A stretch of 64,000 bases of DNA from Sedimenticola sp. Its GTDB lineage: Bacteria > Pseudomonadota > Gammaproteobacteria > Chromatiales > Chromatiaceae. Shown here one piece after another: positions 2,980 through 15,480 of this stretch. The DNA lies in assembly GCA_026992075.1 (NCBI GenBank), contig JALXAM010000009.1, positions 119,000-182,999 on the forward strand, in the 5' to 3' direction. Position 1 is the first letter of the stretch, and each line of letters starts with the position of its first letter. Below the pieces are notes generated by a model. The model was not told the DNA's origin and did not search any database. It saw only the letters and a program-made list of their open reading frames with translations. The translations under genes were made by a program, and so were the position numbers.

Positions 2980-3083
2980 GGACAGGATGCGTGTTCATGA
3001 GGTTACCAGAGGCAGGTCGGATTTCAGCCCGACACAGGAGCCACCATGGATGTCGGACTGAAGTCCGACCTACGGTTACCAGA
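2980..3083. repeat. Inverted pair of 18-bp REP-like palindromes (3016-3033, 3052-3069) flanked by 10-bp direct repeats GGTTACCAGA
   Basis: gtcggatttcagcccgac ... gtcggactgaagtccgac; ggttaccaga at 3001-3010 and 3074-3083. Confidence 0.7.
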
Positions 3084-8250: not shown

Positions 8251-8282
8251 GGCGCCATCGACTTTGGGGCCCATGCCCGTAG

Positions 8283-8388
8283 GTCGGGCTTCAGCCCGAC
8301 AAACTCCACGATCTTTCCCGAAAGGCCGGTGGACCACTCCGCGACGATGCCGGAGTCATGCACCAGGGGTGTCGGGCTGAAGCCCGAC
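8283..8388. repeat. Inverted pair of REP-like palindromes (8283-8300, 8371-8388) at a convergent junction
   Basis: gtcgggcttcagcccgac ... gtcgggctgaagcccgac. Confidence 0.8.
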
Positions 8389-8428
8389 CTACGAGTGTCG
8401 GCTGCCGGAGAGCCCGGGTTTCTCCACG

Positions 8429-14101: not shown

Positions 14102-14207
14102 ATCGATGAGGCGCGGATTTGCCGGCGTGAGATTCGGGTCAGCCTTGAAGTTTCCCGGGAAAGCCTCATCTCCCGGGGTGAACCCATAGTCAACAAGGAA
14201 AACAACC

Positions 14208-15335
14208 ATGAAAATCCGGTTCTCCTACCGCAAGATCGACAAGAACGAGAAGAAACAGCTGAAAGAGCTGGTGGCCAGGGGAGAGGAATCCCTGGAACCC
14301 CTGCTCTCCAACTACGACCCGGAAGCCGTGGTTCTCGATGGCGCCATCGAAAAACACGCCAAACGGCAGCTCTATCGTGCCCGGCTCAAGCTGCACCTGC
14401 CGCACAAGACGCTGGCGGCGGTGGAGGAATCGGACAGTGCCGCCAGCTGCCTCAATGGAGTCTTCGCCGAGCTGCGCCGCCAGCTGGAGCGCTACAAGCA
14501 CCTGTCGCGCAACGATCACCTGTGGAAACGCCCCCGCCGCCGCGCCCAGCTCCGCAGCCTGCTCAAGGAGAGCACCACAACGGACGAACAGGAGATGCGC
14601 CGCAGCTTCATGAACCTGGTACGCCCCCATCTGGAGGAGCTGTACCACTTCATTCGGCGGGAGCTGGCCTATCACCAGGCACTAGAGGACCTTTCTCCGG
14701 CCGATGCCGGTCCCGACGAGATCCTGGACAGCACCCTGGTGCGCGCCTATGAGCGTTTCCCCCAGCGCCCGGAACACCTGGAACTGTTGCCCTGGCTCAC
14801 CAGCCTGGCGCTGGAGGTGATCGGAGAGGAGATGGAGGCCCACCGGGTTCGTGAACGGCGGGTGGCCACCGAAGAGCGGGAGCCCGAGACGCCCATGGAT
14901 GTCACCGACGGCATCGACACCGAGATCTACGAGTTCTACCAGCCGGACGAAGTGATCCGCCTGGAGGACGTGATCCCCAACCCCGAGAGCCCCATCCCGG
15001 AAGAGGCCGAGGCGTTGCTGGAGCGCAACCTGCTGGTGCAGGAGGTGCTGGCGCTGCTCCCCCGCCGCTGGCGCCAGGCACTGGTACTGGTGGACGTGCA
15101 CGAGATGCAGGAAACGGAGGTGGCCGGGATCCTCGGTTGTTCCCAGGACGAACTGGCCGAGATGCGCCGCTGCGCGGAGCGTTTCATGCGCGAGTGGCTG
15201 GCCCAGCGGCTGGGTCCCGACGAGATCGAGGACACCACCACCGAGGAGCTGCTGGGATCACCCCTGCGCGAACCGCTGCCGGACGAGCTGGAGGCGGAGA
15301 TCCTGGAGAAGTTCATGCCCATGGAGGCTGAGTAG
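14208..15335 (+). CDS. Two-part protein: N-terminal HPF/RaiA (S30AE)-like domain plus C-terminal sigma-70 region 2/region 4-like segments
   Basis: MKIRFSYRKIDKNEKKQLKELV...RARLKLHLPHKTLAAVEESDSAASCLNGVFAELRRQLERYKH matches S30AE pattern; C-term RSFMNLVRPHLEELYHFIRRELAY...AYERFPQ...EVLALLPRRWRQALVLVDVHEMQETEVAGILGCSQDELAEMRRCAERFMREWL matches ECF-like sigma 2/4 layout; aaggaa ribosome-binding site upstream. Confidence 0.75.
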   Translation: MKIRFSYRKIDKNEKKQLKELVARGEESLEPLLSNYDPEAVVLDGAIEKHAKRQLYRARLKLHLPHKTLAAVEESDSAASCLNGVFAELRRQLERYKHLSRNDHLWKRPRRRAQLRSLLKESTTTDEQEMRRSFMNLVRPHLEELYHFIRRELAYHQALEDLSPADAGPDEILDSTLVRAYERFPQRPEHLELLPWLTSLALEVIGEEMEAHRVRERRVATEEREPETPMDVTDGIDTEIYEFYQPDEVIRLEDVIPNPESPIPEEAEALLERNLLVQEVLALLPRRWRQALVLVDVHEMQETEVAGILGCSQDELAEMRRCAERFMREWLAQRLGPDEIEDTTTEELLGSPLREPLPDELEAEILEKFMPMEAE

Positions 15336-15371: not shown

Positions 15372-15480
15372 TTCCCTCTCCCCCTTGGGGGAGAGGGTCA
15401 GGGTGAGGGGGTATCGGAATTTTTGTAGGTCGGCCTTCAGGCCGACAAAGCATCGGGCGGTTGCCGGGCTGAAGCCCGAC
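15372..15480. repeat. Composite repeat region: CCTCTCCC...GGGGGAGAGGGTCAGGGTGAGGG element plus REP-like pair (15429-15446, 15463-15480)
   Basis: gtcggccttcaggccgac and gccgggctgaagcccgac; similar gggggagagggccagggtgaggg at 57335-57358. Confidence 0.7.

Follow-up and report, generated by a model that had tools for sequence, protein, structure and literature searches.

A conserved protein joining an HPF-type fold to a sigma-like module in Sedimenticola and in stress-resistance islands

An open reading frame on a Sedimenticola sp. contig raises the question of whether a single protein joins a ribosome-hibernation fold to a sigma factor-like module, and what such a protein would do. The frame lies in the 64,000-nucleotide stretch of DNA that was analysed (the window), where it runs on the forward strand from an ATG at 14208 to a stop ending at 15335 and encodes 375 amino acids. 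An AAGGA ribosome-binding site, read from the sequence, is located at 14195..14199 (+), 8 nt before the ATG, and the continuous 375-codon frame with a good ribosome-binding site described in the initial annotation is thus confirmed to its exact coordinates. Since full-length homologues that share its start occur in many other genera and, at 57-66% identity, in eight further genomes of the genus, and since dN/dS within the window's clade is 0.13-0.35, the frame is a gene under purifying selection, and a chance frame or artefact was ruled out. A merger of two genes through sequencing error was also ruled out, as distant genomes also encode the fusion in a single open frame. Among GTDB species representatives, a scan yielded 28 loci, and a long match covering the HPF part was found in 18 genomes, counting that of the window, out of 369 Gammaproteobacteria sampled; the search for homologues of the same architecture, which the initial annotation had suggested, therefore returned a conserved family. 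One genome (G398) encodes two fusion paralogues, L059 and L071. In the window, a REP-like palindrome, GTAGGTCGGCCTTCAGGCCGAC, is found in four copies with at most two mismatches (3052-3073, -; 8279-8300, +; 8371-8392, -; 15425-15446, +), where none is expected by chance, and the last of these lies just downstream of the fusion gene.

Residues 1-101 (14208..14510, +) form an S30AE/HPF-fold domain, as indicated by PF02482, the topology of an AlphaFold model, Foldseek, and a family profile searched against PDB sequences. PF02482 gave 25.1 bits on the fusion frame in a scan of the window's own genome (cut-off 23.7); by hmmscan, the S30AE match over residues 17-98 (E 3e-4) scored 21.9 bits, just below the cut-off, and homologues of the protein reach 36-45 bits. 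The predicted strands and helices (E2-8, H12-29, E42-49, E56-64, E67-75, H78-101) follow the beta-alpha-beta-beta-beta-alpha order, so that the S30AE superfamily is represented by both its profile and its fold. Foldseek aligned this half with V. cholerae HPF (4hei; TMt 0.88, 1.9 A), and the family profile matched the HPF of 4v8h (E 9e-8). The HPF/RaiA-like segment with a basic end that had been read at about residues 1-110 is upheld by these results. Basic positions of helix alpha2 are retained, with R or K at column 91 in 38 of 38 aligned family members and at column 95 in 37 of 38. The alpha2 helix of HPF faces 16S rRNA, a role that columns 91 and 95 would share. A conserved basic linker, LWKRPRRRAQL, follows at residues 102-121 (14511..14570, +), where charge counts in the family give a net +4 to +8 over residues 101-121 in all 38 members counted, and where R108, R111, and R112 are near invariant. 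HPF and RaiA proteins bind in the decoding channel of the 30S subunit and silence ribosomes, and ribosome binding by the HPF half is a plausible prediction from sequence. In Nitrospirota, one bin contains a full-length copy, and the remaining matches in that phylum sample are stand-alone HPF-like proteins; several host genomes are metagenome bins, for which phylum labels are provisional. The fusion profile gives 74-87 bits for these stand-alone proteins (L073-L082), which are 116-123 aa long, have a basic tail, and are possibly close kin of the HPF half.

The PF02482 scan found two S30AE genes in the window's genome, a canonical short HPF (104.6 bits) and the fusion frame, and a canonical HPF is also encoded in nearly all fusion-carrying genomes checked. 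The fusion is therefore not the housekeeping hibernation factor. Over residues 1-101 it has its fold, topology, and basic alpha2 in common with short and long HPF/RaiA proteins. The C-terminal domain of long HPF dimerises or tethers ribosomes in 100S, whereas the C-terminal extension of the fusion is sigma-like rather than a dimerisation domain, and canonical HPF is encoded separately. The AlphaFold model of the window protein (26 aligned sequences; mean pLDDT 82) places a basic helix behind the HPF fold and then sigma2-like and sigma4-like helices (125-335) separated by a poorly ordered acidic linker, with a pTM of 0.59 that leaves the relative placement of the domains uncertain. The same two folds are predicted (pLDDT 83) for L035, which belongs to the second branch of the family and is 42% identical to the E. 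coli member discussed below. The protein has a two-domain architecture of HPF and sigma-like parts, and fold prediction, named as a check by the initial annotation, agrees with it. The C-terminal tail (residues 337-375; 15216..15332, +), with a helix at 359-369 in the model, is conserved mainly within the window's half of the family.

Sigma region 2-like helices occupy residues 125-219 (14580..14864, +), as identified by TIGR02937, alignment with ECF sigmas, and Foldseek; a short insertion distinguishes them from ordinary ECF sigmas. Sigma region 4-like helices with a helix-turn-helix occupy residues 263-335 (14994..15212, +), as identified by Sigma70_r4_2, PhyR_sigma-like, and the AlphaFold model. 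NCBIfam TIGR02937 (sigma70-ECF) matches residues 136-315 (E 1.9e-8; 34.1 bits, under the cut-off of 42.9), and the Pfam models PhyR_sigma-like (residues 286-323, E 2.9e-5) and Sigma70_r4_2 (residues 276-312, E 8e-5) give significant matches under their cut-offs; the window protein reaches no curated sigma cut-off in Pfam or NCBIfam. Against PDB sequences, the family profile matched the ECF sigma 7qh5 (2e-12) and PhyR 9by5 (7e-9), and Foldseek retrieved the ECF sigmas SigH, RpoE with NepR, SigW with RsiW, and sigmaE. The region 2-type bundle and the region 4 helix-turn-helix that had been proposed at about residues 125-210 and 277-333 both hold.

The family was then compared with nine ordinary ECF sigmas by alignment. 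Mean net charge is -0.8 in the family versus +2.9 in the ECF sigmas for the region 2.4 helix and -1.4 versus +2.8 for the -35 recognition helix (312-327), and does not differ between the two for the first helix-turn-helix stretch; the p-values of these charge comparisons are only indicative, as related sequences were treated as independent. Within the recognition helix, residues 313-326 (15144..15185, +) lack the basic residues of ECF sigmas by charge and residue comparison, and the arginine at 322, present in 9/9 ECF sigmas, is lost in the family. The region 2.4 asparagine of six of the nine is mostly E or D, and the region 2.2 glutamine that corresponds to sigma70 Q406, Q in all nine, is D in 41 of 42 family members (D174 in the window protein). 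These equivalences of family columns to sigma70 and sigmaE positions are assumed from background on sigma factors together with the alignment. The sigma half seems to be a degenerate, PhyR-like sigma mimic in which promoter reading has seemingly been lost, and replacement of the region 2.2 glutamine by aspartate may make it a poorer binder of RNA polymerase as well. Of the two functions offered by the initial annotation, a degenerate sigma fold is better supported than a sigma that changes transcription directly, because the promoter-reading surfaces lack conserved basic and polar residues.

An ordinary ECF sigma is weakened as a candidate by this charge and residue analysis. The fusion has in common with ECF sigma factors the sigma2-linker-sigma4 layout with both sigma domains, the TIGR02937 match, and Foldseek similarity to SigH, SigW, and RpoE, but differs from them in the fused HPF domain and in the loss of the basic 2.4 and 4.2 helices and the region 2.2 glutamine. 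A true ECF-like sigma of unusual promoter specificity, controlled by a ribosome-binding domain, would agree with the significant match over residues 136-315, with the similarity to ECF sigmas of known structure, and with database annotation of family members, which are called hypothetical, sigma-28, FliA, or sigma-70 family; the net negative promoter-contact helices, the absence of ECF signature residues, and the scores under every curated cut-off make it very unlikely. PhyR, the sigma-mimic anti-anti-sigma of the alphaproteobacterial general stress response, binds the anti-sigma NepR. Like the fusion, it joins a degenerate sigma2/sigma4 module to another domain, and the two are similar by profile. 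The sigma-like module with lost DNA contacts is thus present in the fusion, whereas the receiver domain is replaced by an HPF-fold domain at the opposite end of the protein, a long acidic linker with a YEFYQPDE motif is found, and no NepR-like gene was noted nearby in gene maps of the family loci.

The acidic, poorly ordered sigma2-sigma4 linker spans residues 220-262 (14865..14993, +), as defined by low pLDDT at 220-239 and by charge. Its acidity, already remarked upon in the initial annotation, is a property of the family, with a mean net charge of -12.4 over residues 217-262. Here the family alignment contains the near-invariant motif YEFYQPDE (residues 241-248; 14928..14951, +), part of YEFYQPDExxxLEDLI, the most conserved segment of the family; a sequence search of the PDB found no counterpart of the motif. 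Such conservation, together with a sigma2-linker-sigma4 layout that is kept across the family, speaks against a hibernation factor only, in which the sigma fold would be reused for ribosome dimerisation or tethering without a link to transcription. That explanation would account for the basic residues kept in the HPF half, for the degeneration of both promoter-contact helices, and for the lost region 2.2 glutamine, but the sigma part and the motif also occur in three relatives that lack an HPF domain, and this explanation is regarded as unlikely.

The three HPF-less relatives are L031, L034, and L041, of which L031 and L034 are found in Herminiimonas and Calditrichota bins, and two of the three sit on long branches of the tree. 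No split-off HPF gene was seen beside them in the available flanks, and contig numbering places the HPF genes of their genomes on different contigs. The L031 genome encodes a stand-alone HPF at C53:17798, a few kb past an Hsp20/DnaK-like stretch (L141; G410:C53:1-15000). The existence of these relatives and the PhyR-type profile matches would suit a partner switch acting without the ribosome, in which the HPF fold has been taken over as an input domain and the sigma mimic, in the manner of PhyR, titrates an anti-sigma. The E. coli protein introduced below, which has no Pfam S30AE match, would also fit, but a member of the same branch, L091, scores 29.4 bits as S30AE. With the alpha2 basic positions and the basic linker conserved, and with no cognate anti-sigma or sigma gene consistently adjacent to the fusion in gene maps of the family loci, a ribosome-free switch is considered quite unlikely.

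Judged by homology and gene position, one branch of the family is orf11 of the transmissible heat/stress-resistance island (tLST) of E. coli, Klebsiella, and relatives. The island is also called LHR or TLPQC, and orf11 is equated with ORF10 by position only. In tblastn searches of plasmids, the window protein as query found 286 records and the L094 protein 310, mostly in Klebsiella, Enterobacter, Acinetobacter, and Escherichia. The match in E. coli NZ_CP061755.1 is the hypothetical protein WP_191111784.1, encoded between hdeD-GI and trx-GI of a complete tLST, and the fusion homologue of Pseudomonas fragi is likewise located between hdeD-GI and trx-GI. In a single comparison, the window protein and the E. 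coli tLST copy are 27% identical over 327 aa from the first methionine (E 4e-25), with homology that extends through the HPF part, the sigma part, and the linker motif. Of the 5,426 complete E. coli genomes, 152 carry orf11. Despite this full-length homology and a common family tree, the window gene is unlike tLST orf11 in that it is chromosomal and solitary, falls in the other of the two branches, and lies outside any Hsp20-ClpK-YfdX-HdeD-Trx-KefB cluster of the tLST kind. Phage records held no match to the fusion and viral contigs none to the tLST protein, and a phage origin was dropped on these grounds.

Published work on the island bears on whether orf11 matters. It is not among the seven of 13 tLST genes whose deletion lowered heat or chlorine resistance (PMC8407380), its deletion left membrane-lipid oxidation unchanged in published work, and it is interrupted in LHR2 (PMC5383660). 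Proteomics detected one unnamed hypothetical LHR protein (PMC7010813), which is possibly Orf11. The annotated orf11 is frameshifted in E. coli KL53 (L151:9001-10147) and intact in E. coli EcPF16. The lack of an acute-survival phenotype is compatible with a role in recovery or dormancy and equally with a dispensable gene. A decaying, dispensable passenger of stress islands would explain the deletion result, the interruption in LHR2, the KL53 frameshift, and dN/dS values of up to 0.63 between very close island copies; more distant tLST copies, however, give 0.23-0.26, which with the values of the window's clade indicates purifying selection, and the linker motif is invariant across distant branches, so that a passenger is highly improbable.

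Linkage to proteostasis genes is observed in many lineages. The second branch lies in proteostasis islands with Hsp20, ClpK/ClpG, FtsH, HtpX, DnaJ/DnaK/GroEL, YfdX, and HdeD. Gene orders at family loci, drawn from gene maps and Pfam checks, include YfdX-Hsp20-fusion-CbpA(DnaJ)-HtpX-FtsH (L091), Hsp20-fusion-CbpA-HtpX-Trx-FtsH (L086), YfdX-HdeD-Hsp20-fusion-DegP (L094), and Hsp20-YfdX-fusion-CbpA-HtpX (L089). FtsH adjoins the fusion gene in L018, from the window's genus, and in L033 and L101, and is about 2 kb away in L090. On plasmids, the order is ClpK-like ATPase-fusion-HdeD in Brucella and Caulobacter, ClpK-like ATPase-fusion one gene before HdeD in Roseomonas, and Hsp20 genes-fusion-GroES-GroEL-DnaK in Burkholderia and Paraburkholderia. 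A proteostasis neighbour, with Trx and KefB not counted, was found at 13 of the 32 genome loci that span 6 kb or more (mean 11.8 kb), one of the 13 being the HPF-less L034, versus 5 of 40 random 15-kb stretches (Fisher p 0.012, for loci that are not independent). In the window's lineage the fusion gene is usually alone and chromosomal, and in the window itself it is solitary as well, with MFS and RND-efflux genes to one side and a TrkH-type gene to the other (named by reading), and has no proteostasis neighbour in the gene map. A DsrC/TusE-like gene is found near the fusion at L023:950-1600, L027:5429-5959, L097:4371-4901, and L095:354-935, 9-30 bp from the fusion open frame in three of these loci and further upstream in the fourth; its product is a possible functional partner in sulfur-oxidising lineages.

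The explanation tentatively preferred, at somewhat less than an even chance, is that the fusion is a stress-associated hibernation-type factor with a degenerate ECF sigma mimic of the PhyR sort, which would link ribosome state to a sigma partner. During proteotoxic stress, its HPF domain would dock in the decoding channel of the 30S subunit, or would signal that this site is unoccupied, and the sigma-like module with its YEFYQPDE linker would bind a partner on the sigma side, which would be RNA polymerase core or an anti-sigma. In this way, the idling of ribosomes would be tied to transcription, or to the freeing of a stress sigma, while the cell is damaged and recovers. In this scheme we infer the ribosome binding, the identity of the sigma-side partner, and the direction of signalling. 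The explanation is favoured because both folds are found by profile and structure in both family branches, because the alpha2 basic positions and basic linker are kept, promoter contacts are degenerate, and PhyR is among the profile matches, and because proteostasis genes are neighbours in tLST, beside alphaproteobacterial ClpK-like and HdeD genes, and in Burkholderiales Hsp20/GroESL/DnaK islands. It is weakened by the lack of a consistently adjacent anti-sigma or sigma gene and of a proteostasis neighbour for the window gene, and by the orf11 deletion without a heat or chlorine defect, the interruption in LHR2, and the three HPF-less relatives.

By its sequence, the HPF-sigma fusion appears to be a variant that combines hibernation factors and sigma mimics. 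The literature searched, from which subscription journals were mostly absent so that an earlier mention is possible, holds no description of such a fusion or of the linker motif; the one paper found with both ribosome hibernation and the locus of heat resistance apparently concerns another subject. The initial view that no system of this architecture had been described stands for the searchable literature, but needs amending in that the family includes orf11, an uncharacterised gene of a stress island that is itself well studied. The fusion may couple ribosome hibernation with the transcription machinery, a combination that we know from no other single protein. It is possible, if doubtful, that the family forms a regulator class joining the two, in which HPF on an idle 30S and a sigma mimic capturing RNA polymerase core or an anti-sigma would let ribosome idling set stress transcription. 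For annotation, the family identity would imply new names in about 300 plasmid records and in the 152 complete E. coli genomes, where the proteins currently go by hypothetical, FliA, or sigma-28. It also provides orf11 with an identity that can be tested. The literature searched reports no function for this gene, which belongs to a much-studied transmissible island of heat and chlorine resistance. If true, the coupling of ribosome state to transcription would be categorically new, and would reveal a hidden regulatory part of tLST and of other proteostasis islands.
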